From the NCBI GenBank assembly GCA_021773795.1, contig JAJFJT010000003.1, forward strand, positions 124,001 through 188,000: a stretch of 64,000 nt of DNA. Reading direction: 5' to 3'. The first letter of the stretch is position 1. Every line of letters begins with the position of its first letter. Below are positions 11,049 to 58,883 of this stretch, in pieces. Below the pieces are notes generated by a model. That model saw nothing but the letters and a program-made list of their open reading frames with translations, was not told the origin of the DNA and did not search any database. Source of the DNA: Gammaproteobacteria bacterium. Its GTDB lineage: Bacteria; Pseudomonadota; Gammaproteobacteria; HK1. Position numbers and translations under genes: made by a program.

Positions 11049-11059
11049 GGAGTTAGACC

Positions 11060-11650
11060 ATGGCACGAATGAAATTTCTGTGTGATGCGGAACGCTGTAT
11101 CGAATGTAATGGTTGCGTCACTGCGTGTAAGAATGAGAATGCCGTTCCGTGGGGCATCAACCGCCGTCGGGTGGTAACTATCAATGATGGTAAACCGGGC
11201 GAGAGATCCATTTCGGTAGCTTGCATGCACTGCTCGGACGCGCCATGCATGGCAGTCTGTCCGGTTGATTGCATCTACGAGACGGAAGAGGGGGTGGTTC
11301 TCCACTCAAAGGATCTGTGCATTGGTTGTGGATACTGCTTCTATGCCTGTCCCTTTGGTGCCCCGCAGTTCCCGCAGGCGGGTAACTACGGCAGCCGTGG
11401 CAAGATGGACAAATGCACCTTCTGCAACGGTGGTCCGGAAGAGGACAATTCCCAAGCCGAATTCCAAAAATATGGGCGAAATCGTCTTGCCGAGGGCAAA
11501 TTGCCTTTGTGTGCGGAGATGTGCTCGACCAAGGCACTACTGGCCGGCGATGGTAGCGAGGTAGCGGATATCTACCGTGAGCGGGTGGTTGCCAGAGGCT
11601 TTGGTTCAGGAGCCTGGGGCTGGGGAACAGCCTACGAGCGCAAATCGTAA
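11060..11650 (+). CDS. fdhB: Formate dehydrogenase iron-sulfur (beta) subunit
   Basis: A 196-aa ferredoxin-type subunit with four cysteine groups for four [4Fe-4S] clusters: CIECNGCVTACKNEN, CMHCSDAPCMAVCP, CIGCGYCFYACPFGAPQ and the split KCTFC ... CAEMCSTKALL. It carries electrons from FdhA to the membrane cytochrome. It has no signal peptide and no C-terminal anchor, so it probably crosses with FdhA on the Tat route. A clear terminator-like hairpin follows its stop. Confidence 0.96.
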   Translation: MARMKFLCDAERCIECNGCVTACKNENAVPWGINRRRVVTINDGKPGERSISVACMHCSDAPCMAVCPVDCIYETEEGVVLHSKDLCIGCGYCFYACPFGAPQFPQAGNYGSRGKMDKCTFCNGGPEEDNSQAEFQKYGRNRLAEGKLPLCAEMCSTKALLAGDGSEVADIYRERVVARGFGSGAWGWGTAYERKS

Positions 11651-11675
11651 GCGGACGTTGTAAATGAGCGCAAAA

Positions 11676-11718
11676 GGGGAGGCAATGTTTGTTTGCCACC
11701 CCGCTTTTTGTGCTTTTT
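11676..11718 (+). terminator. Intrinsic terminator between fdhB and fdhC
   Basis: Stem GGGGAGGCAA / TTGCCACCCC with a short loop (11676-11702), followed by GCTTTTTGTGCTTTTT. It lies inside the 180-base gap between fdhB and fdhC. It would reduce transcription into the cytochrome gene or mark a separate fdhC transcript. Confidence 0.7.
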
Positions 11719-11830
11719 AATATCCCGACCAGCTTCTAGCCATCCAAGTGTTGTGGATATTGTGCCATCGCGGCGCCCTATCGGTTCGGAGTAATGAACC
11801 GGCCTAAAGACTGAGGCAAGGAAACATGAC

Positions 11831-12829
11831 ATGAACCGGGCATCCCTTCACCGCGCTTTGAGTTGTCTGGGCATTGCTCTGCTGATGATCTTTGCGGTGG
11901 GGGTGGTTTTCCTGGGCTCACTCTCTCTTGATTCTCCAGCTATGGCACAAAGCCAGGGTAAGGCACCAGGCAATGCTCTGGGCAACGTCAGCGATCCTGA
12001 ATTTTGGCGGCAGGTACGCCGTGGCTCGGCTGGAACCGTTAGCATTCCCGACAAGAAAGCAGCTGTATTAGTGCAGTCGGGTGGTGAAAGCTGGAGGGTT
12101 AAGCGGAATGGCCCAATCTCCAGGTATGGGGCTTGGGGTTTGGTGGCGACCGTTATGCTTATGGTGGCTTTCTATCTGATCCGTGGCCGCATCCGGATTG
12201 AAAGTGGATTTTCTGGTCGCCTTATTCGTCGATTTAGCAATATCGAGGTTTTTACCCACTGGCTGACGGCCTTTGCCTTTATCATTCTAGCCATTACGGG
12301 CCTGAACGTGCTCTACGGCAAGTATGTTCTGTTGCCGGTCATTGGGCAGGAAAGTTTTGCGGTGATCGCTGGATGGGGGAAATTTGCCCACAATTACATC
12401 GCGTACGCTTTCATATTGGGCATCGTGATGGAGATTGTCCTGTGGCTGAAGGATAATCTTCCCGATCGCTACGATGCCGGCTGGCTTGCCCAGGGAGGAG
12501 GGCTATTCAAGAAAGGCGTGCATCCTCCAGCGGGAAAATTTAACACCGGTCAAAAAATGATCTTCTGGATGATCATTGTCGGCAGTGGCTTCAATATCTT
12601 CACAGGTCTAAACCTGCTATTTCCCTTCTACCTGATGGACCTGGAGCAGATGCAGTTAATGCTGATCCTTCATTCCATTTCTGGACTGCTTTTAATGTTC
12701 GTGATCATCGCCCATATCTATATTGGGACGGTTGGTACGGAAGGTGCAATTGACGCTATGCGCACCGGATACGTTGATGAAAACTGGCTGCTGCAACACC
12801 ACAGTGCCTGCGTTCCGAAAAAAGACTAA
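11831..12829 (+). CDS. fdhC: Formate dehydrogenase cytochrome b556 (gamma) subunit
   Basis: A 332-aa membrane subunit. It starts with a hydrophobic signal (LGIALLMIFAVGVVFLGSL) and a periplasmic stretch (residues 35-95), then four transmembrane helices of the FdnI/FdhC cytochrome b family. Candidate haem-ligand histidines are in EVFTHWLTAFAF, KFAHNYIAYAF and LILHSISGLLLMFVIIAHIYIGT. It passes electrons to quinone. The 180-base gap with a hairpin separates it from fdhB. Confidence 0.94.
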   Translation: MNRASLHRALSCLGIALLMIFAVGVVFLGSLSLDSPAMAQSQGKAPGNALGNVSDPEFWRQVRRGSAGTVSIPDKKAAVLVQSGGESWRVKRNGPISRYGAWGLVATVMLMVAFYLIRGRIRIESGFSGRLIRRFSNIEVFTHWLTAFAFIILAITGLNVLYGKYVLLPVIGQESFAVIAGWGKFAHNYIAYAFILGIVMEIVLWLKDNLPDRYDAGWLAQGGGLFKKGVHPPAGKFNTGQKMIFWMIIVGSGFNIFTGLNLLFPFYLMDLEQMQLMLILHSISGLLLMFVIIAHIYIGTVGTEGAIDAMRTGYVDENWLLQHHSACVPKKD

Positions 12830-16705: not shown

Positions 16706-16725
16706 GTTCCCTATGGGGACTTTTT
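16706..16725 (+). terminator. Terminator after the 4Fe-4S gene, overlapping the tupA 3' end
   Basis: Stem GTTCCC / GGGGAC with a TAT loop, then TTTTT. It begins 13 bases after the plus-strand stop and overlaps the last codons of the convergent tupA. Confidence 0.55.
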
Positions 16726-17532
16726 GTCCGCCGGAAAGAAGGCCTGCTCCCCGTTAATGGTGAACGAGGCGATGGCCTTTTGGCCGTCGGGGCCGATCAG
16801 CCAGTCTATAAACTTTTGTCCCAACTCTGCCTTGACGTGGGGATGCCGGTTCTGGTTGACCAGGATGACGCCGTAAGGATTGAGCAATTTAGAACTACCT
16901 GCATTAAGTATCATGAGATCACCGCGGTTGGCAAAAGCAAGCCAGGTTCCGCGGTCGCTTAGGGTGTAGGCATTCATCACCGCCGCCGTATTTAGCACCG
17001 CGCCCATTCCTGCGCCGGCCTCACGGTACCAGGAGCCTGACGCGTTGCGGGGATCGATGCCGGCAACTTGCCATATGCCGAGCTCTTTTTTGTGGGTACC
17101 GCTGTCATCGCCACGCGACACAAACGGCATTTTGGTGTTGGCGATATGGGTGAAGGCGGTCGCGGCGCTGTTACCCATAGTGATACTGGCGGGATTGCTC
17201 TTAGGCCCAACGATAACAAAATTATTGTACATGAGGTCATGGCGTTTGACCCCGTGACCCTCTTTCACAAAGGCTTTCTCTGAAGCCAGATGGTGGACCA
17301 GCAGCACGTCGGCATCACCGCTGGTGGCCAGGCGGATGGCTTGGCCAGTACCGGCGGCGATCACCCGTACCTGGATGTGGGTCTTTTTCTCGAACAGCGG
17401 CAAGATGTGGGCAAATAACCCGGAGTTTTCGGTTGAGGTGGTTGAGGCGACGATGATGAAAGGATCTTCGGCTGTAGCGGGGATGGCCAGGGTCAGCAAT
17501 AGCACCAAGATGGGGAGTTTTAGCCTCATCAT
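16711..17532 (-). CDS. tupA: Tungstate ABC transporter substrate-binding protein TupA
   Basis: A 273-aa periplasmic binding protein with signal peptide (MMRLKLPILVLLLTLAIPATA). The ligand-binding start IIVASTTSTENSGLF carries the TTS-type motif of the TupA family. Further family features are AAGTGQAIRLATSGDADVLLVHH, FVSRGDDSGTHKKELGIW, and YTLSDRGTWLAF. TupA binds tungstate much more tightly than molybdate, whereas ModA differs in these loops. It is last in a four-gene unit and its ATG overlaps the tupC stop by 4 bases. Confidence 0.93.
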   Translation of the reverse strand: MMRLKLPILVLLLTLAIPATAEDPFIIVASTTSTENSGLFAHILPLFEKKTHIQVRVIAAGTGQAIRLATSGDADVLLVHHLASEKAFVKEGHGVKRHDLMYNNFVIVGPKSNPASITMGNSAATAFTHIANTKMPFVSRGDDSGTHKKELGIWQVAGIDPRNASGSWYREAGAGMGAVLNTAAVMNAYTLSDRGTWLAFANRGDLMILNAGSSKLLNPYGVILVNQNRHPHVKAELGQKFIDWLIGPDGQKAIASFTINGEQAFFPADKKSP

Positions 17533-18311
17533 TTCGTTGTTCCTTCTGATATCTGCTTACGATTGTCCTCTCCGCGTTTCCACCATAACAAGTCTCCAGC
17601 AATAAACTTTTGCGCCAAATCGTTTTCCGGTTTGGTGAAAAAGGCTGTGGCGGCGGATTTTTCCAGTAATCTGCCGCGGTGCAGAAACAGCAGCTCGTCG
17701 GCCAGGCGGCGGGCCTGTTCCAGGTCATGCGTGGTCATGACGATGCGGGTTCCGGCCTGATGAATGGTATTGATGAGTTCCTCTACGTCATGGGTGGCCG
17801 CCGGATCCAGGCTCGCCGTTGGCTCATCAAGGAACAAGACCTGTGGTCTTAATACCCATGCCCTGGCCAGCGCCAGTTTCTGCTGTTCTCCGAAGGAAAG
17901 CACTCGTGCCGAGTAGTTGGCGAGGCGGTTGAGGCCGGTCATCCTCAGGGCCTCCTCAATACGCTCGGGGCGTTCACGCCTCGGCACCTTGCGTAGTGAT
18001 AATGCATAGCCAATATTGGCCGCCACAGAGCGTCGTAGCATGACCGGGCGTTGGAAGACCATTGCCTGGAATGGTGCCGGGTCGTATCCATGGGCCCCAT
18101 GCCAGATAATTTTACCGGAGCTGGGGGCTATCAGGCTGTGACACAGCCGAAGGAAAAGGCTTTTTCCAGCGCCGTTAGGGCCGATAACGATAGTGCGTGC
18201 CCCTACCTCAAGACGGAATGACAGATCCTTGATTAGGCGCTTCCCCCCAGCTTCAAAGGATACCTGGCGAAACTCCAGGGGCAGGATGGATTTGGCCTCA
18301 TTCCTATCCAT
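17529..18311 (-). CDS. tupC: Tungstate ABC transporter ATP-binding protein TupC
   Basis: A 260-aa ABC ATPase with Walker A GPNGAGKS, Q-loop VFQRPVML, signature LSFGEQQKLALARAW, Walker B VLFLDEPTASLD and switch His in TTHDLEQARRLAD. The C-terminus is short, without the MOP/TOBE domain that ModC carries, as expected for Tup/Wtp-type ATPases. It overlaps tupB by 8 bases and tupA by 4, so the products are translationally coupled. Confidence 0.92.
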   Translation of the reverse strand: MDRNEAKSILPLEFRQVSFEAGGKRLIKDLSFRLEVGARTIVIGPNGAGKSLFLRLCHSLIAPSSGKIIWHGAHGYDPAPFQAMVFQRPVMLRRSVAANIGYALSLRKVPRRERPERIEEALRMTGLNRLANYSARVLSFGEQQKLALARAWVLRPQVLFLDEPTASLDPAATHDVEELINTIHQAGTRIVMTTHDLEQARRLADELLFLHRGRLLEKSAATAFFTKPENDLAQKFIAGDLLWWKRGEDNRKQISEGTTK

Positions 18312-19008
18312 GGTTTCTTCGGGCTGTTTCGCTGATCAAAAAGGAAGCGCCGTTGACCACCAGAGACAGGGTGATGAGGATGATACCGAGACCCAGTGCC
18401 AGCGCTAAATCCCCCTTGGAGACCTCAAGCGCGATAGCAGTGGTCATAACGCGCGTCACGTGATCAATATTGCCGCCGACAATCATTACCGCGCCGACCT
18501 CGGCGCTGGCACGGCCAAAACCGGCGAGTATTGCTGTCATCAGCGAGAAACGGCCATCCCACAGCAGCGCCATGATCCGCTGACCCGGCCCGGCACCGAG
18601 CGAGCAAAACTGTTCCTCGTATTCACGCCACAGGTCGTCGATGACCTGGCGAGTCAGAGCGGCGATGATGGGTGTCACCAGTATCAGCTGCGCGATGATC
18701 ATGGCGGTGGGGGTGAATAACAATCCAAACACCCCCAGCGGCCCGGCCCTGGACAAGGCCAGATAAACGGCCAGTCCGACTACCACCGGGGGCAGACCCA
18801 TCAGGGCGTTGATAAATACCACGATGGAAGCGCGCCCGGGAAAGCGGAACAGCGCAAGGGCGGCCCCAAGTGGCATGCCGATGAGCGCGGCTCCGCTTAC
18901 TGCAACCAAGCTAACCTTTAGCGATAGAAAAACGATTTCAGCAAGGTCGCTATCGAGCTGTAGAACCAGCGCCAACGCGGCCAATAGTGCCGAGCTAAAA
19001 TCGTTCAT
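18304..19008 (-). CDS. tupB: Tungstate ABC transporter permease TupB
   Basis: A 234-aa inner-membrane permease with about five helices. The binding-protein-dependent transport segment is near residues 141-180 (EYEEQFCSLGAGPGQRIMALLWDG), and the family pattern FGRASAEVGAVMIVGGNIDH is present. The N-terminal region SLKVSLVAVSGAALIGMPLG is typical of tungstate/molybdate permeases. Its start overlaps the DUF2478 stop by 4 bases. Confidence 0.92.
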   Translation of the reverse strand: MNDFSSALLAALALVLQLDSDLAEIVFLSLKVSLVAVSGAALIGMPLGAALALFRFPGRASIVVFINALMGLPPVVVGLAVYLALSRAGPLGVFGLLFTPTAMIIAQLILVTPIIAALTRQVIDDLWREYEEQFCSLGAGPGQRIMALLWDGRFSLMTAILAGFGRASAEVGAVMIVGGNIDHVTRVMTTAIALEVSKGDLALALGLGIILITLSLVVNGASFLISETARRNHG

Positions 19009-43635: not shown

Positions 43636-45171
43636 TCAGCTATAGCTCTTCTCAAGCTCCGCATATTTGTCCTTAACAAACTGGACCCGCTCAGCGCCCT
43701 TCAGACTATTACTCTCGGCGGTGGTGGAGATAACCTTGCGCGCAGCATCACGTCGACGCTCCACCTCCTCAGCTAAGGTAGCACCTTCTTTGATCATCAG
43801 GATATTGCCTTGGCAGTAGAGGTTGGGGCCGGGGTTTTCCTCTAACCATGTCTTCCACGCGGCAGGACTGGCCTGTGGATTATCTCCCGTGATGGCATCA
43901 CGCAGCAGTTTTCGAAACAGAAAAACACCGCCGTCCGCCTTCATCGGGTTCTCCAGCGCGTGTACCGCGATGGGGCGTTGACTTACGGTGGCCTCGTAAT
44001 CACCAGGTGCCCATTGCGCCTCCTTGTAGCACTCGCGCGCCCGGTGATCGGGCTGCGGCTGCATAAACGGGGTTTTTTCGGTTCTGTTGTCCCAATAGCG
44101 TTGCAGCTCCGGGCGGCGGCGGGAAACCTGACCATCAAGGAAATCCATTGTCTCGAAGCCGATGAGGTGCCTCAAAGCTACATCAAGACCACGCGGGTCG
44201 ATGCCCGCTCCCACCATCCGCCAGCCAATCATCTTGCATGCCGTATCGTTCACCGGCACGGTCCAGCGGATCATGTGCAAACGGCTAAAGAGCTTACGCT
44301 TCGATCCATCTTCGAAGAGATAGGAGTGACAACTGATATTCGGCAACACTTGTTGGTTGACGCGAATGAATATCTTGCCTTCGTCGATGCGCCGGGAAGC
44401 TGTCCAGGCCATACCCCGGCCATCATCCACCGGGAAGAATTGTAGGTCAGGCCGCACCAGGTATGGGGCTGCGCCTGCCTCACCAAAGGTGGTGGATTGC
44501 TCGTGCCCTGGCACCACCGCGGTGGTATGTAGCGGAATGTGATGGTATTGGTCGGCAGAGTTATCCTGTACCTGCAGCCAGTTGGCGTCGTCGCGATTGC
44601 TGTAAGGAACCAGTTCGTCGCCATCCATCAGGGTAAAATCATCCTCCCATTCAGGGAATGGTGGCTCTTTCTCCGGCGGGCCCATGTAGGCGAAGACAAG
44701 CCCGTTGCGCTCAAAGGCCTTGTAGGCGGGTTGCCATACTCTGGCGGCAAGCTGTTCGCCCTCAGCTTCCTCACCCTTTGCTGAAGGTACCTCAAGACAC
44801 CGTCCATCCACGTCCCAGGTCCAGCCGTGGTAGCAGCACATAATGCCCTTTTCCTTCACCAGACCATATTCCAGCGAGGCGCCACGGTGGCAACAATGGG
44901 CGTGAAGCACGCCAACGTTACCGCTGTGATCGCGAAAAGCGACCAGTTCTTCACTCATGATTTCGATGAAGCGTGGGGTGTCAGTCAGCTCTTCAGACAT
45001 ACACACTGGATGCCAAAAATGGCGCATATACTCACCCAGCGGAGTCTCCGGACCGGTCTCGGTCAGTAACGGTTCATGCTTTGGAATAACCGTACTGTAA
45101 TAGCCGCCATAGGGAATCAGCTTGGGTTGCCCAGCGAGCTTGGCAGCGATATCTACTTTGTTTTCACTCAT
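43636..45171 (-). CDS. Rieske-type ring-hydroxylating oxygenase, large subunit
   Basis: About 511 aa. The N-terminal Rieske [2Fe-2S] centre is AHCCHRGASLEYG (Cys93/His95) with CCYHGWTWD (Cys112/His115). The mononuclear iron site is DNSADQYHHIPLH (Asp203, His210/211, His215). This is an oxygenase alpha subunit of the LigX/phthalate-dioxygenase type, longer than most. No reductase, ferredoxin or beta subunit is adjacent. The ATG at 45171 with GGAG is preferred over upstream starts. It lies 189 bases downstream of the GFA gene on the same strand and is probably in the same TetR-controlled unit. Substrate unknown. Confidence 0.88.
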   Translation of the reverse strand: MSENKVDIAAKLAGQPKLIPYGGYYSTVIPKHEPLLTETGPETPLGEYMRHFWHPVCMSEELTDTPRFIEIMSEELVAFRDHSGNVGVLHAHCCHRGASLEYGLVKEKGIMCCYHGWTWDVDGRCLEVPSAKGEEAEGEQLAARVWQPAYKAFERNGLVFAYMGPPEKEPPFPEWEDDFTLMDGDELVPYSNRDDANWLQVQDNSADQYHHIPLHTTAVVPGHEQSTTFGEAGAAPYLVRPDLQFFPVDDGRGMAWTASRRIDEGKIFIRVNQQVLPNISCHSYLFEDGSKRKLFSRLHMIRWTVPVNDTACKMIGWRMVGAGIDPRGLDVALRHLIGFETMDFLDGQVSRRRPELQRYWDNRTEKTPFMQPQPDHRARECYKEAQWAPGDYEATVSQRPIAVHALENPMKADGGVFLFRKLLRDAITGDNPQASPAAWKTWLEENPGPNLYCQGNILMIKEGATLAEEVERRRDAARKVISTTAESNSLKGAERVQFVKDKYAELEKSYS

Positions 45172-45360
45172 TGTTCTACTCTCCAAATACATGCGTGATA
45201 TTTTGTGCCTAAAAATCGAAGAGGGCTGGCTGGTAGCTGCCCTCATTCCACCTACCCTTGGGGGTGATGCACAGGCTCAAAGGGGCGGATCTCGTGCTCT
45301 GGCGGCGATACACCACCAGAGCCGAGAGTGTCATTCACTCTTTTGTTTTGTGTGCGGGGA

Positions 45361-45894
45361 TTAATTTTCCGAGAGGGGAGTCGGTACGTAATCCAACCCC
45401 AAGCGTTTGGCGCCTAAATCATCGTGGCCAACCCAACCTTCATACATCGGCAGATTCAATTTTCCCCAGAACTCACCTGGGAGGGTTGAGTCTTCCATGA
45501 AAACAATTCGTCCAGGTACAGGAACCTTGCTTTGGTCTTTTTTATCCACTGTTGGCATATGTACGAGGACCAAGCTGTCAAATCCTTCCACATCAACATA
45601 GATGGTGACTTGGCACCCACTGTGGTCCATGTGCTCCCGCCGACACAGAGGTTTGGTTTTGGTTGTGACTAGATGTTGGGCACCCTCTGTAATCACAAAG
45701 GCATCTTTGGTCACAACCAGGATATCGTGGATAGGGGCACCGGATACTTCCCTGCAATGATCGCAGGGACAAAGATGGCGTTCAATAAAGCCAGATAAAT
45801 CAATTTTGTATCTCAGAGAGGCCTGTGGTTTGCCATTGCCATCATTGTGACCAATAACTCCACCTTCAATTATTCCACTTAGTGAACCCATCAT
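45361..45894 (-). CDS. GFA-like (CENP-V fold) zinc protein
   Basis: About 177 aa. The central LCPCDHCREVSGAP and later CRREHMDHSGC resemble the zinc-binding cysteine groups of glutathione-dependent formaldehyde-activating (GFA) family proteins. The usual N-terminal Cys-x-Cys is replaced (GSLSGIIEGG), so the structural or catalytic zinc site may differ. The start ATG 45894 has GGGGAG six bases before it; the frame stays open upstream only because the promoter happens to be translatable. Its promoter carries the same operator as aioB. Enzymatic role unknown. Confidence 0.7.
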   Translation of the reverse strand: MMGSLSGIIEGGVIGHNDGNGKPQASLRYKIDLSGFIERHLCPCDHCREVSGAPIHDILVVTKDAFVITEGAQHLVTTKTKPLCRREHMDHSGCQVTIYVDVEGFDSLVLVHMPTVDKKDQSKVPVPGRIVFMEDSTLPGEFWGKLNLPMYEGWVGHDDLGAKRLGLDYVPTPLSEN

Positions 45895-46009
45895 AATTTC
45901 TCCCCTGGAAAGTTCGACACCAGTGCGTTGTCGGCTACGGGCCGAGTCTTGCAATGGACGCATAGCGGTATATATGACTATCGAATTGGTGTATCTATCA
46001 CCTGAAACA

Positions 46010-46038
46010 AGAGTAGAATGAATGTTCGTTCTAGTCAA
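46010..46038 (-). promoter_or_regulatory. Promoter with embedded TetR-type operator, GFA/Rieske unit
   Basis: Minus-strand -35 TTGACT (46038-46033), 17-base spacer, -10 TACTCT (46015-46010). The plus-strand palindrome TAGAATGAATGTTCGTTCTA (46014-46033) fills the spacer, so a bound dimer would block RNA polymerase. An almost identical module precedes aioB. The TetR gene starts 168 bases away on the other strand. Confidence 0.78.
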
Positions 46039-46205: not shown

Positions 46206-46856
46206 ATGCCTTACCTGACAAGAGAACCTCCAAATCCCGAGCCAGTCAATTGCCGTATTCTGACGGCAGCACTTGAGCTATTTGTGGCTAAGGGCTTTCA
46301 TAATATTTCTGTGCACGATATACAGAAACAAGCAAATGTAAGCATCGGATCGATATACAATCACTTTGGGGGAAAAGAGGGTATAGCGAAGGCGCTGTAT
46401 GACCGTTTACTTAATGAAATTGATATTTTGATTCAATCAGTGATGCATGATGAATCAAGCGCAAAGGCACGTTGCAATAAGATCATCAGCTTGCTGTTTG
46501 AACACACAGAATCACACCGCAACATAATTGCCTTTATTTTTCATCCCAAACACAATGATTTTCTACCCGGTGAATTACCCATCTGTAGTACGGTTCCTTT
46601 TAAATCTGTTCACGATATCCTCAAGCAAGGGATGAAAGATGGGGAAATCAGAACGAGCAATCTATGGGTTGCCGTCGCTACAGTGTTCGGTGGTGCCTAC
46701 CACATGATCCAGTTACGGCTGGACGGCATGATCAAAGTTCCACTACCTACATTACTTGACGAATTTCTGCAGCATACATGGCAGGGCATGAATACACCGA
46801 TAAAGAATTCTCGGAAAAAGAAGAGTGTCCGCTTGGTGAGTGCAAGTCGTAAATGA
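46206..46856 (+). CDS. TetR/AcrR-family transcriptional regulator
   Basis: A 216-aa protein. The N-terminal helix-turn-helix is about residues 17-63: RILTAALELFVAKGFHNISVHDIQKQANVSIGSIYNHFGGKEGIAKALY. The C-terminal ligand domain is helical (about 70-190) with aromatic and His residues in HRNIIAFIFHPKHNDFLPGE, possibly part of a binding pocket. It ends with a basic tail. It is divergent from the GFA gene, and its likely operator lies between them. It is the obvious candidate repressor for both this unit and the aio operon. Ligand unknown. Confidence 0.9.
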   Translation: MPYLTREPPNPEPVNCRILTAALELFVAKGFHNISVHDIQKQANVSIGSIYNHFGGKEGIAKALYDRLLNEIDILIQSVMHDESSAKARCNKIISLLFEHTESHRNIIAFIFHPKHNDFLPGELPICSTVPFKSVHDILKQGMKDGEIRTSNLWVAVATVFGGAYHMIQLRLDGMIKVPLPTLLDEFLQHTWQGMNTPIKNSRKKKSVRLVSASRK

Positions 46857-47582: not shown

Positions 47583-48449
47583 TCAGCTGCGAGGGATTCT
47601 TGACGCCAGCAGGCGTTGCAGTCCCCCTCCGATAACAGCACCCAGCATCGGGGCCAGGATGTAGACCGTGAACCAGCCGCCCCGCGGGCCCGGAATAGCA
47701 ATGTCGCCCCAGCCGAGAAAATAGGATACCAGCCGTGGCCCGAAATCCCGCGCGGGGTTGAGTGCTGCCTGGGTGAGGGGAGCCACTACGGAGATGATCG
47801 CAGCAACACCGACGCCGATCATTACTGCTGCAGCAGCATCTGGCGGACGGGCTGGATTGCGCGTGCTTGTCACCGTACCCACCAGGAATGCGAGCATGGC
47901 CGTACCGATCATTTCGGCGATAAATGCTCCGCGGAGCCCGACGATGCGCCAGGCTTGCTCATCGGTACCGAAGACGGAGGGATTTGGAAAATACTCGCCG
48001 AACACCATGGCGCTCAGCTCACTTCCCGGTCCGCCCCGCAGTAATCCGTGCTGGCGCTCGAGCTCGATAATGGCTTCGGCGAACATGGTATAGAGCAGGA
48101 TGGATGCACAGGCGGCCCCCGCCACCTGGGCCACCCAGTAGGGCACCACACGTGGTAGCGGAAAGCCGTCGAAGACTGCATTGGTGAGTGTGATAGCGGG
48201 ATTGATATGCGCGCCGGAGAGCGATGCCGCGGTGTAAATACCGAGACTAACGCCAAACGCCCACACCACGGCCACCTGCCACAGTCCACTCTGGGCGCCA
48301 GTCGCCACTGCCGCGTTTACCGCACCCACCCCGAAGAACACGAGCACGAAGGTGCCCGCAAACTCACCAAGCATGGCGGTCATCAGTCTCGGTTCCGCTC
48401 GGGTTTCCACGGCGACGGCGATACTTTCAGTGCTGTTTTCTTCGCTCAT
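47583..48449 (-). CDS. Aquaglyceroporin-type MIP channel of the aio operon
   Basis: About 288 aa, six membrane helices with both NPA boxes: SGAHINPAITLTNAVFDG and QAALNPARDFGPRLVSYFLGWG. The Asp after the second NPA (NPARD) and the long loop between helices (about residues 105-145) indicate the glycerol-conducting GlpF type. Such channels also pass As(OH)3. The ATG at 48449 overlaps the pentapeptide gene stop by 4 bases. Placement after arsenite oxidase suggests movement of arsenite; this is inference. Confidence 0.9.
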   Translation of the reverse strand: MSEENSTESIAVAVETRAEPRLMTAMLGEFAGTFVLVFFGVGAVNAAVATGAQSGLWQVAVVWAFGVSLGIYTAASLSGAHINPAITLTNAVFDGFPLPRVVPYWVAQVAGAACASILLYTMFAEAIIELERQHGLLRGGPGSELSAMVFGEYFPNPSVFGTDEQAWRIVGLRGAFIAEMIGTAMLAFLVGTVTSTRNPARPPDAAAAVMIGVGVAAIISVVAPLTQAALNPARDFGPRLVSYFLGWGDIAIPGPRGGWFTVYILAPMLGAVIGGGLQRLLASRIPRS

Positions 48450-49438
48450 TTTGTTTCCTGTTTCAATAGTATCGGCTCGCCCCGAGCTCCGTGTAGCAGC
48501 AGGCGTTCGAGTACAGTGCCCTCGAAATTTGCGCCGCTCAGACTCGACTGTTCGAGGCTTGCATCCAGAATCCGGGCGCCCCTGAAGTCTGCTCCGGTCA
48601 AGTTCGCGCCGGTCATCAGGGTGAGGGCAATGTGCGCACCGCGGAAGATGGCGCCATGCAGATCGGCGGCATAGGCCCGGGTCCATCCGAGCGAGGCTTT
48701 GGAGAAGTCGGCCCCTGCTGCCCGGGACCAGCTCATATCGGCATGCCCCAGATGCGCCCCGACCAATCGTGCGCCTTCCAGGTTTGCTTCACGCAGGATG
48801 ACACTTCGAAGGTTGGCACCTGTAAGATCGGCTCCGCTCAAATCGGCCCCGTTCATGCGCGCGCCACTCGGCCCAAAGTGGCCAAGCGCCGATGCACCAA
48901 GATCGGCGCCCGCAAGTCGGGCATCGACGAGCACGCTTTGCCGTAGATCGCTGCCGGCCAGAAACGCGCCTTCCAGCACGGCGCCGTTCAGGCGCGCCTT
49001 GGTGAGAATGGCACCGGCCATCATCGCTCCGGTGAGATCGGCCTCCTCGAGGCGGGCATTGCCGAGCCGTGCGAGGGTAAGATTGGCCCCCTTTAACAGC
49101 GCCTTGCGCAGATCGCCGCGGGTGATGTCGGCGTTGCCCAGATTCGCGCTGCTGAAATCGGCACCCTCCGCGCGCACCTCCCGCAGGTAGGCCTCGCGCA
49201 GATCGGCATTCCGCAGGTTTGCACCGCGTAAGTCGGCCCCGGTCAGGTTGGCCCCGGTCAGTTTGACACCCTGTAACTCGGCCCCCCGGAGATCGGCGTT
49301 ACGCAGATCATAGCCGGCGAGGTCCCCGTCAGGAGGTAGCTCGAACCCGTTGACAACTGGCGTCAGTGCCAGCAGGGCAAAGGCGACGAGCAAACGCATC
49401 GGGCACGATATCTTTGGCCGCTGCGCACTCATGGTCAT
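48446..49438 (-). CDS. Exported pentapeptide-repeat protein of the aio operon
   Basis: A 330-aa protein. A hydrophobic signal (MRLLVAFALLALTPVVNG) is followed by roughly fifty A(D/N)Lxx pentapeptides from residue 40 to the end (ANLTGADLRGANLRNADLRE and so on), predicting a long right-handed quadrilateral beta-helix. It has no other domain. Its start overlaps the aioA stop and its stop overlaps the channel start, both by 4 bases, so the three are translationally coupled. An exported pentapeptide protein beside a periplasmic oxidase may act as scaffold or accessory subunit. Function unknown. Translation may start at residue 14. Confidence 0.9.
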   Translation of the reverse strand: MTMSAQRPKISCPMRLLVAFALLALTPVVNGFELPPDGDLAGYDLRNADLRGAELQGVKLTGANLTGADLRGANLRNADLREAYLREVRAEGADFSSANLGNADITRGDLRKALLKGANLTLARLGNARLEEADLTGAMMAGAILTKARLNGAVLEGAFLAGSDLRQSVLVDARLAGADLGASALGHFGPSGARMNGADLSGADLTGANLRSVILREANLEGARLVGAHLGHADMSWSRAAGADFSKASLGWTRAYAADLHGAIFRGAHIALTLMTGANLTGADFRGARILDASLEQSSLSGANFEGTVLERLLLHGARGEPILLKQETK

Positions 49439-51927
49439 GACGCCACGTTTCGTGGCCGAAAGCTAACGTTCTTTACCTCATCCGGTGGTGGGCCGAGCCA
49501 TTTCACGTCCGCCCAGACCTGCTTGTAGCTCGGAATAGTGGTCTTGGGATCCACGTGATCCGAGACCAGATTACTGGCCGCGCCTCTGGGCTGACCAAAC
49601 AGCAAGAACGTGTGGCCGCGCTTCACGGCATCACTGGGATAGGCCATGGCCTCCACCGTGCCTACATCGTTGCTGAGCTCCACTCGATCGCCGGGGCCGA
49701 TACCAAGCTCAGCCGCATCGTGCGGATGCATCTCCAGGCACGGCATGGGATAGCGGTTCTGATAAAAGGCCAGGTGGCGGTGGTGGTAGAGGGTCTGCCA
49801 CATGTGATTGACTCGGCCGTTGTTGACCCAGAACCGATAGCGTTTCTTCTGGGCCTCCACCTTGGCGGCATAGCCGGGCCAGGGCTGCGGTGCATCAACG
49901 AAGCGTGCCTTTCCCGATGGCGTGAAAAAATGCCCGTCCTCGTGCATGCGCACGGTACCTACCGGCACCCGGTTCACCAGCCGCGTCGGTGTCTGGATGC
50001 CGTCGGTGCCCAGCTGTCGAAGGAGGTCGTAGGTGATGCCGGCATAGCCCTCCATAGGATCTGAATGGGTGCCCGTGAACTGGTAACGGGCGTGGATGAA
50101 GACGTCCTCATCGCTCTTCCAGTCGAAGTCCAGAAACCGGTTGGCGGTGAGTGGATTTCGATCTTCCAGGTAGAGTTCACGCAGGCGGCGGGCAAAGCGC
50201 GCCATAATCGCCCAATCCGGGATGGCCTCACCCGGGGGATCCATGAAACGCTCGTAGAGCCGCAGGCGCCGCTCACCATTGATGGACGTGAGATTCATTT
50301 CGCCCCACTGGGCGGCGGAGAGCACCAGGTGTGCGTGGCGGGTAGTAGCCGTGGGATAGATATCCTGGGCAATGAGGAACATGCCGCCTGCCTTGAGGGC
50401 GTCCACGATGGCGGGGATGCGTTGGGCAGCCGGGCGGCCCCGAGTCTTGGCCAGCGCCCGGCGCACCGGCTCGCCGCGCTCCACGAGACTGCGCTCCAGA
50501 GCTTCAGCTCGAAGCGTAGTGAGCACCGGATTGCAGCCACCCACCCAGTACGCCTTCGCCTCGCCGCGGCGGACTGCCTCGTCTACGTTGAGCGCCGGAC
50601 GTCCTCCCGGATACGGTGGGCGTACGTAAGCCTCTTGATGACCACCGAGCCGGCTGATGCCTGTGCCTGGCTTGCCCACGTTGCCTGTAAGTAGCCCCAG
50701 GCCCACGAGGGCGGCGATGTTCTGGTAGTTCTTGAGACCCCAGATCAATCCCTTCTCGTAGTGCAGCAAGGTACGCCTTCGCACCCCGGGTCTCTTCGGC
50801 TCAGCAATCCAGCGCGCCGCAGTTTCAATCTGTTCGCGCGTCACTCCGGTGACACGAACGGCGGCCTCAAGCATCTGTTCCAGCGGGCGATCCATTGCCA
50901 GGGTGGAACGTTGAAAGGCTTCAAAAGTCTGCCACTCGGTGCGCTCGCGCAGGAAGGCCACATCGTGCCAGTGATACTCGAGGACCAGGCGCCCGATGGC
51001 ATTTAGTAGTGCGATGTCCGCACCCGGCTCGATCTGCAGATGCAGTACACGGTCGCGGCCCGCTGCGGCCTCGGCGGTGGCAACGGTCATGGTGCGTCGG
51101 GGATCGACAATGATCATACGCCCGCGATCCACGGGCTCGTCACCGAAGGTGGCTCGCTTCAAGTCCATGCTGGCGCCGTTTAGGTTTGGCACCATGTGTT
51201 CCAGGAAGTAATTTGTCTGGGTCTCGTAGGGATTAGCGCCTACCACGAGGATGGTGTCGGCTAGTTGAGCGTCCAGGTAACTGTTCGTGAGCGGTACCAG
51301 TCCCGCGTCGCCGGCGGCATGCACTTCGCTGTTATAAGCGGGCCGGTTATGTATCGACGCGGTGCGGGTACCAACACCAGTGAAGAAGAAGCGTCCCACC
51401 GCCCAGTTATTCTCAAAGCCGCCGCCGCCGCCGCCGTGGTCGAAGAACTTCATACCCACGGCATCAGGGCCCCAACGATCGATAATTGCCTTCAGAACAC
51501 GAGCGCCGAGGTCCGTAGCCTCGTCCCAGCTCACCGGCTCCTGTCCTCGCCCCTGATCCAGCAATGGGCGTGTAAGCCGGACACGGGTCGTGCGATCCGG
51601 CGAGTACAGCGTCTGCGCGAGTCCCGCGCCACGCACCGAGGAGAGCCCCCTATTCACGACGCAGGCCCGGTCGGGAATGATCACCACGTTGTGGTGGCTG
51701 CCGTCATGATCCACCACTTGGGTGTGCATATTAGGTGCAATCCATTCACCACCCATGGGAGGTTGGGGTCGGGTGAAGTCTACGCCCAGGGCATTGCTGG
51801 CCGCCTGTGGCCCACCGCGGCGGCCTACAGGCCACTTGTAGACCTTGTATCCGCAGCCCACGATGCAGAACTGACACACCGTGGTAAAGCGACGGGCGTC
51901 CGTCGGCGGCAGGGGAGTATTACTCAT
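49435..51927 (-). CDS. aioA: Arsenite oxidase large subunit
   Basis: An 830-aa molybdopterin oxidoreductase. The [3Fe-4S] site is C18-x2-C21-x3-C25 (CQFCIVGCGYKVYKWP) with Ser96 in the fourth position (NRGLSSVRG), as in AioA. The residues that line the arsenite pocket in characterised AioA are in register: His193 and Glu201 (IHNRPAYNSE), Arg426 and His430 (SRLGGHQEAY). It lacks its own signal and should travel with AioB on the Tat route. It oxidises As(III) to As(V) in the periplasm. It follows aioB by 29 bases. No cytochrome c or moeA gene is present in the unit. Confidence 0.93.
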   Translation of the reverse strand: MSNTPLPPTDARRFTTVCQFCIVGCGYKVYKWPVGRRGGPQAASNALGVDFTRPQPPMGGEWIAPNMHTQVVDHDGSHHNVVIIPDRACVVNRGLSSVRGAGLAQTLYSPDRTTRVRLTRPLLDQGRGQEPVSWDEATDLGARVLKAIIDRWGPDAVGMKFFDHGGGGGGFENNWAVGRFFFTGVGTRTASIHNRPAYNSEVHAAGDAGLVPLTNSYLDAQLADTILVVGANPYETQTNYFLEHMVPNLNGASMDLKRATFGDEPVDRGRMIIVDPRRTMTVATAEAAAGRDRVLHLQIEPGADIALLNAIGRLVLEYHWHDVAFLRERTEWQTFEAFQRSTLAMDRPLEQMLEAAVRVTGVTREQIETAARWIAEPKRPGVRRRTLLHYEKGLIWGLKNYQNIAALVGLGLLTGNVGKPGTGISRLGGHQEAYVRPPYPGGRPALNVDEAVRRGEAKAYWVGGCNPVLTTLRAEALERSLVERGEPVRRALAKTRGRPAAQRIPAIVDALKAGGMFLIAQDIYPTATTRHAHLVLSAAQWGEMNLTSINGERRLRLYERFMDPPGEAIPDWAIMARFARRLRELYLEDRNPLTANRFLDFDWKSDEDVFIHARYQFTGTHSDPMEGYAGITYDLLRQLGTDGIQTPTRLVNRVPVGTVRMHEDGHFFTPSGKARFVDAPQPWPGYAAKVEAQKKRYRFWVNNGRVNHMWQTLYHHRHLAFYQNRYPMPCLEMHPHDAAELGIGPGDRVELSNDVGTVEAMAYPSDAVKRGHTFLLFGQPRGAASNLVSDHVDPKTTIPSYKQVWADVKWLGPPPDEVKNVSFRPRNVAS

Positions 51928-51956
51928 GAGTGCGCCATGTCCGTGGTGAGTGCCAG

Positions 51957-52481
51957 TTACAGGATGTTGGTATGCCGACCGTAGATAAGGCCATGTACGC
52001 CGACCGCCTGCACCCTGTCACCCTCGATACGGAGTGCGATGCGAGGCAGGGAGGAGCTCGCCTGACCGATGATCAGGCTTCCTCCCTTAGCAGGATCGAA
52101 GGTACTCCAGTGGCAGGGGCAGATAAGCATCCCCTGCTCGGCCTTGTAGCTAACCGGGCAGCCTTTATGGGTGCAAAGTATGGAAAATGCCACGATGCTC
52201 GAATCGTCCCCCAACCCATCGAGCGCTCCTTCTTGCAGGCGCATGAGCAGTGCTGGCGACGTGGGGCTGGGATAGGAAAAAGGGATCGTGGTGCCGGGCG
52301 TGAGGTCTGAGAGTCGTGCCACATCCAGCACCGGATAAGCCGTTACCGGTGTTGCTGTGTGACTTGGGTTGCTGGCGGCGAACACGGGGATACCGGCGGC
52401 ACCAGCCACGCAACCACTTGAAACCTTGAGGAAGTCACGCCGGTTTAGGGCGTGGCGTGTACGTCGGGATTCATTACCCAT
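51957..52481 (-). CDS. aioB: Arsenite oxidase Rieske subunit
   Basis: A 174-aa protein with Tat signal (NRRDFLKVSSGCVAGAAG). The Rieske [2Fe-2S] motif is CTHKGCPV (Cys103, His105, Cys108) and CPCHWSTFD (Cys121, Cys123, His124). Cys108 and Cys123 can form the stabilising disulfide. It is the first gene of aioB-aioA-pentapeptide-aquaporin, preceded by a leader of about 110 bases and the operator-bearing promoter at 52599-52627. Confidence 0.93.
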   Translation of the reverse strand: MGNESRRTRHALNRRDFLKVSSGCVAGAAGIPVFAASNPSHTATPVTAYPVLDVARLSDLTPGTTIPFSYPSPTSPALLMRLQEGALDGLGDDSSIVAFSILCTHKGCPVSYKAEQGMLICPCHWSTFDPAKGGSLIIGQASSSLPRIALRIEGDRVQAVGVHGLIYGRHTNIL

Positions 52482-52598: not shown

Positions 52599-52627
52599 AG
52601 ACTAGAACGAATATTCATTCTAGTCAA
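52599..52627 (-). promoter_or_regulatory. Promoter with embedded TetR-type operator, aio operon
   Basis: Minus-strand -35 TTGACT (52627-52622), 17-base spacer, -10 TAGTCT (52604-52599). The plus-strand palindrome TAGAACGAATATTCATTCTA (52603-52622) occupies the spacer. It matches the module before the GFA gene at 46010-46038, and similarity extends past the -10 (GTTTC then TGA). It drives aioB. Confidence 0.8.
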
Positions 52628-56216: not shown

Positions 56217-56666
56217 TCAGGGTTTTGCCTTAACTTGTCCACCTGAACGCGCCGTTTCCAATGCCTCGGCGACATCAGGAGGCATGTAATTCTCGTCGTG
56301 TTTGGCCAGCACCTCTTCCGCCACAAAGACACCATCTTTGCCAATCCGCCCGCGGGCAACGATGCCCTGGCCTTCGCGGAACAGGTCGGGGAGGATGCCG
56401 GTGTAGACAACCGCAATACGCTCGGCGGTGTCGGTGAGCTCAAAGTTGACTGTGACCCCCTGAGTCTCTCGCCGAACACTTCCTTCCACCACCAGGCCAC
56501 CGACGCGCACCGTATGATTGGCCGGCGCTTCTCCCGATTTAATCTGTGTTGGGCTGTAGAAGTAGAGCATATTCTCGCCGATGGCCTGGAGCACCAAAAC
56601 ACCCGCCAGGGCCACGCCAAGCAACATGACGGCAACGAAGATCATGCGTTGTCGCCGCGGTTTCAT
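56217..56666 (-). CDS. ccmE: Cytochrome c maturation haem chaperone CcmE
   Basis: A 149-aa protein. One N-terminal membrane anchor (MIFVAVMLLGVALAGVLVL), an OB-fold body (VRVGGLVVEGSVRRETQGVTVNFELTD, VVYTGILPDLFREGQGIVARG) and the haem-binding LAKHDENYMPP with covalent-haem His123 and Tyr127. Its ATG overlaps the ccmD stop. No ccmF, ccmG or ccmH follows here. Confidence 0.96.
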   Translation of the reverse strand: MKPRRQRMIFVAVMLLGVALAGVLVLQAIGENMLYFYSPTQIKSGEAPANHTVRVGGLVVEGSVRRETQGVTVNFELTDTAERIAVVYTGILPDLFREGQGIVARGRIGKDGVFVAEEVLAKHDENYMPPDVAEALETARSGGQVKAKP

Positions 56667-56842
56667 GGCTGGCTCACGCTATCGGCGTGGGTGTGTCGTA
56701 GGGCTAGCCTGCGTTTTAGCCCACGCAGTCGCCACGAGGGGGCAATCAGATCGTAGCTAAGTACGACGGTGGCCAAGCCATAGGCTCCCCAGACATACAG
56801 GGCATAGCCGCCCATATGAAAAAATTCTGCAAGGTTATTCAT
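56663..56842 (-). CDS. ccmD: Haem exporter small membrane protein CcmD
   Basis: A 59-aa protein: MNNLAEFFHMGGYALYVWGAYG followed by a membrane helix and the basic end LRGLKRRLALRH, the standard CcmD layout. It overlaps ccmC by 8 bases and ccmE by 4. Its product helps release holo-CcmE from the CcmABC complex. Confidence 0.93.
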   Translation of the reverse strand: MNNLAEFFHMGGYALYVWGAYGLATVVLSYDLIAPSWRLRGLKRRLALRHTHADSVSQP

Positions 56843-57575
56843 GATTTTTCAGCGCTTCCCTAATCCAGTTGCTATTGTGCTCACGCTCAAGCAGTTCCAC
56901 CCGTGCCCGCATCAGCAACGAGGTGGCGTAATAGAATTTGCAGGCCAGCGCCATGATCAATAGTGGCACCAGCATGCTGGTATGAATGGACGGTGCCCCC
57001 ATCTTCGAGACTGTCGCGCCCTGATGTAGCGTGTTCCACCACTCCACCGAGAAGTGGATGATGGGAATGTTAATGACCCCCACCAGTGCCAAAATGGCAC
57101 TTGCCCGACTTGCGGTGCGTTTGTCTTCACCAGCTGATTGTAGGGCGATGACCCCGAAATAGAGAAACAGCAGGATAAGCTCGGAGGTCAGGCGTGCATC
57201 CCACACCCACCAGGTGCCCCACATGGGTTTGCCCCACAATGAGCCGGTAGCGAGTGCGATGAAGGTGAAGGAGGCACCGATAGGGGCGCTGCAGGCCGCG
57301 ATGACCTCCGCGAGTTTGATGTGCCAGATCAGGCCTATGCCGCCGGCAGTAGCCATGACTACATAGATGAACAGGGACATCCACGCACTGGGCACGTGGA
57401 TGAAGATAATGCGGTAACTATCGCCCTGTTGGTAGTCGGCTGGCGCCAGCACTAATCCTCCGTAGAGACCGGCCAGCAGCAGTAGTCCGGTTAGGGTTGC
57501 GAGCCACGGTATGGCTTTCCCTGCAAAGCGATAAAAATAAGCAGGTGAGGCAAATCGATGGAACCAGTACCACAT
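56835..57575 (-). CDS. ccmC: Haem exporter permease CcmC
   Basis: A 246-aa membrane protein with six helices. The Trp-rich haem-handling segment is MWGTWWVWDARLTSELILLFLYFG. Flanking His ligands are in FIHVPSAWMSLFIY and EWWNTLHQGATVSK. It delivers haem to CcmE. Confidence 0.96.
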   Translation of the reverse strand: MWYWFHRFASPAYFYRFAGKAIPWLATLTGLLLLAGLYGGLVLAPADYQQGDSYRIIFIHVPSAWMSLFIYVVMATAGGIGLIWHIKLAEVIAACSAPIGASFTFIALATGSLWGKPMWGTWWVWDARLTSELILLFLYFGVIALQSAGEDKRTASRASAILALVGVINIPIIHFSVEWWNTLHQGATVSKMGAPSIHTSMLVPLLIMALACKFYYATSLLMRARVELLEREHNSNWIREALKNHE

Positions 57576-57588
57576 AAGTTGGTGACCG

Positions 57589-58272
57589 TTAGTGAATGCT
57601 GATTTTGAGGGCTGCCGCCGCAGCCAACGGAGCCAGGGAGCAGGACAGTAGCAGCAAGCCCCCGAGAAAGTACAGTTGACCGGTTACTGGCAGGCCATCA
57701 GCGGCGGCGGCCACGGCATTGGCCGAGAAAATGAGCACTGGCAGGTACAGGGGCAGTACCAGCAGCGATAGCAGGGCACCGCCTCGGCGCAAGCCAACGG
57801 TGAGGGCGACGCCGATCGCACCTACCAGGCTAAGTACTGGAGTGCCGAGGGCCAGAGTGAATAATAGCGTCGCCATAGCTGTTACGGGCAGGGCAAGGAA
57901 AACACCCAGCAACGGCGCGATGAGCAGCAGCGGAAGGCCACTAACCAGCCAGTGAGCCAATACCTTGGCCAGCACCAGTACGGTTGGTGGGCAGGGGCTT
58001 AGTAGCAATTGCTCCAGCGAGCCGTCTTCGAAATCCGAGCGGAACATGCGTTCCAGGGATAATAAGGTGGAGAGCAGGGCGGCAACCCAGATGATGCCCG
58101 GGGCGAGCGTTTGCAGAATCGCTTGAGAGGGGCTGACGGCCAACGGGAAAAGGGTCACTACGATGACAAAAAATAACAACGGATTGACCACTTCGCTGCG
58201 GCGCCGAAGGGCAAGTAGCAGGTCGCGGGTCAGTACGGCTATGAATGCCCTGGGGATGCCAAAGGTTCTCAT
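57589..58272 (-). CDS. ccmB: Haem exporter permease CcmB
   Basis: About 227 aa with six membrane helices. It starts with RDLLLALRRRSEVVNPLLFFVIVVTLFPLAV and contains FRSDFEDGSLEQLLLSP, typical of CcmB. ATG 58272 overlaps the ccmA stop by 4 bases, which settles the start. Confidence 0.96.
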   Translation of the reverse strand: MRTFGIPRAFIAVLTRDLLLALRRRSEVVNPLLFFVIVVTLFPLAVSPSQAILQTLAPGIIWVAALLSTLLSLERMFRSDFEDGSLEQLLLSPCPPTVLVLAKVLAHWLVSGLPLLLIAPLLGVFLALPVTAMATLLFTLALGTPVLSLVGAIGVALTVGLRRGGALLSLLVLPLYLPVLIFSANAVAAAADGLPVTGQLYFLGGLLLLSCSLAPLAAAAALKISIH

Positions 58273-58883
58273 GTGACGAGATGCAATTCTCGGTGGATGC
58301 CGGAATCCAAGGGAATAGAGTGATGGCTGGTGATGACCACGCAACCTCCCTTGTTAGCGTGCTGGTGAAGCATTTTTTCCATGGTCGCTATACTGGTTTG
58401 ATCCAATGCGGTAAATGGCTCGTCCAATACCCACAGCAGGGCGTCGTTTAGCAGTAGACGGGCGAGCGCCACTCGGCGGCGTTGTCCGGCGGATAAAACG
58501 TAGGCGGGAAGATGGGCTTGTGCGGTGAGTCCGAAGTGAGCCAGTGCCTGTTCCACGCCGAACTCCGGTGTTCTGGGCGAGAGCGCGAGTGAAAAACGAA
58601 GGTTTTCCGTTGCACTAAGCTCATGCTTTATGCCGTCATGATGGCCTATATGAATGACATCCTCTGAAAAAGTGGATTCATCATCTCTGATATCCTGGCC
58701 TTGCCAGAGGATTTTCCCGGTCGCCGGGTGGGTCAATCCACACACGGCACGGAGCAAAGTTGTTTTACCACAGCCATTGGCACCGTGGATTTGCAGCACC
58801 TCGCCAGCATCCAGATGGAGATTGAGGCCACTGAAAAGGATTCGATCACCTCGCTCGCAGCCAAGATCTACTGTTTGTAACAC
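58269..58883 (-). CDS. ccmA: Haem exporter ATP-binding protein CcmA
   Basis: A 204-aa ABC ATPase: CERGDRILFSGLNLHLDAGE, Walker A HGANGCGKTT, signature LSAGQRRRVALARLLL, Walker B LWVLDEPFTALD and switch His in VITSHHSIP. First gene of ccmABCDE. ATP hydrolysis drives release of haem-loaded CcmE. Confidence 0.96.
   Translation of the reverse strand: MLQTVDLGCERGDRILFSGLNLHLDAGEVLQIHGANGCGKTTLLRAVCGLTHPATGKILWQGQDIRDDESTFSEDVIHIGHHDGIKHELSATENLRFSLALSPRTPEFGVEQALAHFGLTAQAHLPAYVLSAGQRRRVALARLLLNDALLWVLDEPFTALDQTSIATMEKMLHQHANKGGCVVITSHHSIPLDSGIHRELHLVT

Follow-up and report, generated by a model that had tools for sequence, protein, structure and literature searches.

An arsenite oxidase operon with conserved genes for a pentapeptide-repeat protein and a GlpF-type channel, and its candidate link to cobalamin-dependent methyl transfer

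Main finding

The arsenite oxidase genes aioB and aioA are followed, in one clade of AioA proteins, by genes encoding an exported pentapeptide-repeat protein (PRP) and a GlpF-type channel (MIP). On balance, the four genes appear to form one functional module for arsenite disposal, and in most of the bacteria that carry it the arsenite would be derived from methylated arsenicals by way of an arsenic/C1 methyl-transfer island. Regardless of demethylation, a conserved operon that combines a periplasmic oxidase with a beta-helix protein and a candidate metalloid channel is an arrangement new to arsenic biology.

The operon

The operon aioB-aioA-PRP-MIP lies on the minus strand of the window (the whole stretch of 64,000 nucleotides that was analysed), and all four open reading frames are at the place given by the initial annotation (Table 1). 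Its description of one operon with two 4-bp stop/start overlaps was verified: both overlaps, aioA/PRP and PRP/MIP, are ATGA. The MIP start at 48449 matches the relatives, and the start of a longer frame at 48686 is not the true one. This is the single MIP gene of the window genome. The usual companions of aio genes, cytochrome c and moeA, were said to be missing, and indeed no genes for cytochrome c, moeA/glp or aioXSR adjoin the operon; no peroxidase genes are found beside it either. Matches to sigma-54 promoters, which precede AioR-controlled operons, occur upstream of aioB at chance level. Genes similar to ccmE, ccmC, ccmB and ccmA, involved in cytochrome c maturation, are found near the operon (window positions 56217-58883). 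Elsewhere in the window, formate-dehydrogenase-like genes are followed by a tungstate/molybdate-type ABC transporter (8175-12829 and 16711-19008).

Table 1. Operon genes and candidate regulatory features in the window
Feature	Coordinates	Strand	Evidence
aioB, arsenite oxidase Rieske subunit, TAT-exported	51957..52481	-	TIGR02694, TAT_signal_seq, PDB 8r3a_B
aioA, arsenite oxidase molybdopterin subunit	49435..51927	-	TIGR02693, PDB 1g8k, pocket residues
PRP, exported pentapeptide-repeat beta-helix protein	48446..49438	-	PF00805, AlphaFold model, export signals of homologues
MIP, GlpF-type channel	47583..48449	-	PF00230, PDB GlpF, filter alignment
24-bp palindrome ACTAGAATGAATATTCGTTCTAGT, probable TetR-type operator, ~120 bp upstream of aioB	52601..52624		20-bp core search
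Second palindrome copy, flanked by the TetR gene and the divergent GFA-like gene	46012..46035		20-bp core search
TetR-family regulator, candidate operon repressor	46206..46856	+	PF00440, 55 bits
GFA-domain protein, likely co-regulated	45361..46038	-	PF04828, 37 bits
Rieske oxygenase, likely member of the same regulon	43636..45246	-	PF00355, 66.5 bits

Conservation of the cassette

When 84,980 species genomes were scanned with AioA, 43 loci were obtained. In the AioA clade, PRP comes after aioA at all 30 loci and MIP after PRP at 29; at the remaining one the contig ends first. The PRP/MIP pair is found beside none of the 41 other AioA/IdrA-type loci. Every locus whose AioA is at least 62% identical has the order aioA-PRP, with MIP next wherever the contig reaches. 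Neither PRP nor MIP was found at the Nitrospira and Chloroflexota loci (AioA identity 47-57%) or at the canonical AioA and IdrA-like loci of genomes and plasmids. The arrangement is far above chance, in statistics that ignore shared ancestry.

A tree built from 71 AioA-type proteins places the 30 cassette AioA in one clade with 100% support, and the sister of this clade is the canonical AioA of alpha-, beta- and gammaproteobacteria. The presence of the cassette fits a single origin on the tree, except for L005, where the contig stops inside PRP. The exact 4-bp overlaps are kept at 19 of 30 aioA/PRP and 17 of 29 PRP/MIP junctions. The protein distances are correlated among AioA, PRP and MIP (r from 0.63 to 0.76; AioA-MIP, r=0.74; AioA-PRP, r=0.76).

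The initial annotation had named uniqueness to this genome as an objection to its interpretation. The 30 loci come from several classes and phyla, namely alpha-, beta- and gammaproteobacteria and Rokubacteria, although nearly all relatives are metagenome bins and some taxon labels, e.g. that of L037, may be wrong. The cassette is thus conserved across proteobacterial classes and Rokubacteria, and therefore the objection fails. Since the relatives are mostly metagenome bins, the gene absences reported below may be assembly gaps. As a whole, the earlier interpretation is supported in part: its core, a true arsenite oxidase in one operon with unusual companions, holds, whereas scaffolding of AioBA by PRP, stoichiometric synthesis and the direction of arsenite flow are conjectural. 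It had overlooked the arsenic/C1 island and the TetR-linked palindrome described below.

Arsenite oxidase

Both subunits score above the equivalog cut-offs, AioA with 983 bits against TIGR02693 (cut-off 359) and AioB with 141 bits against TIGR02694 (cut-off 96). In PDB, AioA matches 1g8k (E=7e-222), and the best match of AioB is 8r3a_B, itself an AioB. The AioB subunit has a TAT signal (TAT_signal_seq, 21.6 bits) and the Rieske motif CxH...CxxH, and the [3Fe-4S] cysteines C18, C21 and C25 are present in AioA. The arsenite-pocket residues His193, Glu201, Arg426 and His430, correctly listed as kept in the initial annotation, are invariant in all 30 AioA of the clade.

All AioA of the arsenite oxidase type retain Glu201, whereas IdrA-like relatives carry Ser or Asp, and thus position 201 separates the two groups. 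The identity of the enzyme as IdrA, or iodate reductase, was ruled out by the retained Glu201 together with a neighbourhood that has no cytochrome c peroxidases. IdrA-like oxidoreductases with Ser or Asp at this position do occur in genomes of the same genus (L079 in G111, L080 in G228). In the window genome, the cassette AioA is the only match at E 1e-100.

Judging by the pocket, arsenite is the likely substrate of AioBA. Another substrate, for instance antimonite or a trivalent methylarsenical, is improbable. It would agree with the two clade-diagnostic changes of the cassette AioA, D600 and H716, and with the fact that MIPs pass antimonite too, GlpF having first been found as an antimonite channel (PMC9454679). 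However, every residue of the arsenite oxidase pocket is invariant, and arsenic-specific genes are present in the neighbourhood.

Pentapeptide-repeat protein and channel

The initial annotation had named a secreted pentapeptide-repeat protein and a GlpF-type channel, and both assignments hold. PRP matches PF00805 (Pentapeptide) with 204 bits and has the A(D/N)LXX repeats of a quadrilateral beta-helix. Its AlphaFold model (pLDDT 91.6, pTM 0.84) is a confident beta-helix broken by a loop near residues 181-193, with an N-terminal helix at 14-23. The homologues have a hydrophobic N-terminal export segment of the Sec type, with a lipobox-like signal in two of them. Residues R81 and R86 are invariant, E82 is nearly so, and G181 and P190 of the loop are conserved; these positions suggest a surface for a partner. 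A Foldseek search with the model retrieved generic pentapeptide-repeat folds only. The protein almost lacks cysteines, and therefore a cofactor is unlikely; our best guess is the role of a scaffold. Gyrase protection was rejected, as the scores are below the cut-offs for both MfpA (84 vs 360 bits) and Qnr (68 vs 240 bits), and PRP has an export signal, whereas gyrase-protecting proteins are cytoplasmic.

MIP matches PF00230 with 148 bits and GlpF in PDB with E=2e-45, and has two NPA motifs, in both of which Asn is invariant. The selectivity filter deduced from the alignment is W63-I219-A228-R234 in the window protein, and W-I-A-R occurs in all 26 full-length cassette MIPs. The glycerol filter W-G-F-R of E. 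coli GlpF, which is absent from the cassette MIPs, is found in most of the controls; these are plasmid-encoded proteins of the GlpF/PduF type, as none of the MIPs of the same class was similar enough. The W-I-A-R filter fits a metalloid channel and resembles the filter W-V-A-R of plant NIP group I (PMC1866351). One member of this group, NIP1;1, determines arsenite sensitivity according to the passage of PMC9454679 that cites Kamiya 2009. In periplasmic loop C (residues 123-173), which exceeds that of GlpF in length, 59% of positions are invariant, so that its conservation equals that of the pore. A long loop C resembling that of the cassette proteins is also seen in the control MIP of L169, from a Rubrobacter plasmid. 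MIP channels are bidirectional, and those of the GlpF type usually act in uptake, which weighs against a role in export.

Arsenic/C1 methyl-transfer island

The fetched flanks of 21 of the 30 cassette loci contain at least one cobalamin methyl-transfer gene, and those of the control loci contain none. An MTHFR-like gene is present in 24/30 cassette genomes and 0/12 controls; in 15 loci it immediately precedes aioB and has the same orientation. A second corrinoid protein, with 69-98% identity, occurs in 20/30 cassette genomes as compared with 0/288 other genomes of one class (E 1e-80).

The layout of the island was read from larger stretches of twenty genomes and consists of three blocks. The first is VirF-X260-MeTr-UROD-corrinoid-RACo-CobW-GntR; the second is MTHFR-like-aioB-aioA-PRP-MIP; and the third contains a PhsA-like molybdoenzyme, ferredoxin, arsR, arsD, arsA, a LIV-type ABC transporter, a second UROD, a second corrinoid protein and a membrane protein. 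At loci L113-L143 (genomes G370-G397) the island is large, with two URO-D/corrinoid pairs and conserved proteins X260, c7, c18 and c24. The island ArsD and ArsA score above their cut-offs (NF033727, 106.9 vs 90 bits; TIGR04291, 770 vs 650 bits). The genes arsD and arsA sit within the methyltransferase cluster several times, and elsewhere in some genomes. Roughly two thirds of the cassette genomes have ArsA matches, mostly two-domain proteins.

As arsenic-specific and methyl-transfer genes co-locate, demethylation of methylated arsenicals is the leading idea. Tentatively, at somewhat less than even chances, the cassette may belong to an undescribed cobalamin-dependent pathway. Arsenobetaine, dimethylarsenate or similar compounds would be demethylated, the methyl group would be passed to tetrahydrofolate, and the arsenite would be handed over via ArsD/ArsA and MIP to PRP-docked AioBA, where its oxidation would yield energy. 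It is also conceivable that the island chemistry could be methylating rather than demethylating. Bacteria are reported to break down arsenobetaine via dimethylarsinoylacetate (Jenkins 2003, cited in PMC12608789). In a literature search with partial coverage, no paper was found that names genes for arsenobetaine breakdown, that connects arsenite oxidase with corrinoid methyl transfer, or that contains both "arsenite oxidase" and "pentapeptide repeat".

An alternative that we regard as unlikely is that the cassette serves uptake and detoxification only. In this case the channel would balance arsenite, AioBA would oxidise environmental arsenite, PRP would be a stabilising subunit, and the C1 island would be a functionally unlinked fellow traveller. 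The cassette is indeed present without an MTHFR-like gene in the window genome and in both genomes of Rokubacteria, and GlpF is the main entry route of arsenite in E. coli (PMC9454679). However, an unlinked island explains poorly the position of arsD and arsA inside the methyltransferase cluster, that of the MTHFR-like gene directly before aioB, and the restriction of the corrinoid protein within the class.

Efflux pumps

ACR3 is encoded in 4/30 cassette genomes, as compared with 11/12 other Aio genomes. No true ArsB was found in the cassette genomes: the PF02040 matches are weak (at most 84 bits) and consistent with other ion transporters, and ArsB was thus rejected as the partner of ArsA. 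There is no arsenite permease among the neighbours of the stray arsDA pairs. In G370, G373, G380, G384 and other genomes, two-domain ArsA and ArsD are present without ACR3 or true ArsB.

One possibility, on the doubtful side, is that sink-driven export of arsenite replaces a pump, an AqpS-like channel with periplasmic oxidation acting in place of ArsB or ACR3. It is consistent with the 26 cassette genomes that have no ACR3, and with AqpS replacing ArsB in Sinorhizobium meliloti (PMC9454679). On the other hand, the baseline of ACR3 in a sample of the alphaproteobacterial class is itself only 56/240, from which 4/30 does not differ significantly. Therefore the absence of ACR3 is notable only in comparison with other arsenic oxidisers, and pump replacement deduced from this absence alone was rejected. 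Furthermore, the window genome itself has an ArsR-ACR3 pair, and sink-driven export leaves unexplained ArsA that has no known partner.

Candidate regulation in the window genome

The 20-bp core of the palindrome upstream of aioB occurs at just two places in the 2.56-Mb window genome (at most two mismatches). The listed TTG start of the GFA-domain protein overlaps the second copy, and translation therefore probably begins closer to 45900-45960. In the sister genome (L002) a similar palindrome was found 110 bp upstream of aioB, and the second copy has a counterpart at L002 positions 9200-9219. The TetR gene, which there follows MIP, and the GFA gene are both retained beside it. The simplest reading is that the TetR protein controls the aio operon, and the shared palindrome makes it likely that this operon and the TetR/GFA/Rieske-oxygenase locus constitute a two-operon regulon.

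No MTHFR-like gene, ArsA or corrinoid protein was found in the window genome; for the corrinoid protein, the only match is a MetH-sized frame. As this genome lacks these genes and encodes ACR3, the corrinoid demethylation reading is not directly applicable to it. Within the genus, oxidative demethylation of methylated arsenicals might instead be the task of the co-regulated Rieske oxygenase, with the GFA protein handling formaldehyde, and would so replace the corrinoid island. We consider this very unlikely. The palindrome common to both loci and the synteny of TetR and GFA in the sister genome are in agreement with it, as are weak matches in NCBIfam to Rieske enzymes that demethylate. However, the nearest PDB entries are of the phthalate-dioxygenase type, no such genes are found near other cassettes, and the oxygenase has two more paralogues in the window genome. 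Two are also present in a genome of the same genus where no cassette-type AioA was found, which weakens the link to oxidative demethylation.

Proposed mechanism

In the preferred reading, a disposal module supplied by the island, TAT-exported AioBA would oxidise arsenite to arsenate in the periplasm and feed the electrons to respiration. The MIP of the inner membrane would pass uncharged As(OH)3 downhill, presumably outwards. As channel transport is downhill only (PMC9454679), export would be driven by oxidation beyond the membrane; and since the charge of arsenate should keep it from passing the channel, the oxidation step in the periplasm would make the flow one-way. The exported rigid beta-helix of PRP most probably keeps AioBA close to the channel with its conserved loop C. 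In most bearers arsenite probably arises inside the cell by cobalamin-dependent demethylation of arsenicals. The candidate set for this step is the URO-D methyltransferase, corrinoid protein, RACo, pterin methyltransferase and MTHFR-like protein, together with ArsR, ArsD and ArsA. For the window genome, a pump would be provided by the ArsR-ACR3 pair, and TetR, by its predicted binding, would probably control the operon.

If the island demethylates, the return of methylated to inorganic arsenic becomes directly testable. Marine aioA surveys would then need re-reading, because the signal could partly reflect the use of organoarsenicals and not growth on environmental arsenite.

Comparison with known systems

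The cassette shares with canonical AioBA of Alcaligenes faecalis and Pseudorhizobium NT-26 both subunits, the cofactor-ligand and pocket residues, the gene order aioB-aioA and the TAT export of AioB. However, its AioA belongs to a separate clade that shares about 43-45% identity with the canonical AioAs of plasmids, and where the aio operons of NT-26 and Hydrogenophaga have cytochrome c, Glp/moeA and aioXSR genes, the cassette has PRP and MIP. The next nearest enzymes, AioBA of Nitrospira and Chloroflexota (53-57% identical), have no PRP, MIP or C1 genes, and ACR3 is nearly always present in the genome. Iodate reductase IdrAB belongs to the same AioA/IdrA superfamily and differs at Glu201; the IdrA-like gene on an Azonexus plasmid is situated beside two cytochrome c peroxidase genes, unlike the cassette.

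AqpS and other MIPs of ars operons (Sinorhizobium, Nitrobacter) are likewise channels tied to arsenic genes. Here, instead, the channel is of the GlpF type with the W-I-A-R filter and is encoded as part of an aio operon. The MIP gene of Nitrobacter hamburgensis belongs to a distinct ars operon, encoded on the opposite strand. The corrinoid parts of the island resemble the glycine-betaine system MtgBCD (PMC12478193). This system and CmuA/MtaA have in common with the island URO-D or B12-binding proteins, a pterin methyltransferase and an activator, RACo or RamA (PMC12478193). However, the island proteins are far below the MtaA/CmuA/MtgC cut-offs (URO-D, 23-31 bits vs 235 for TIGR01463), and their genes cluster with arsR, arsD, arsA and aio.
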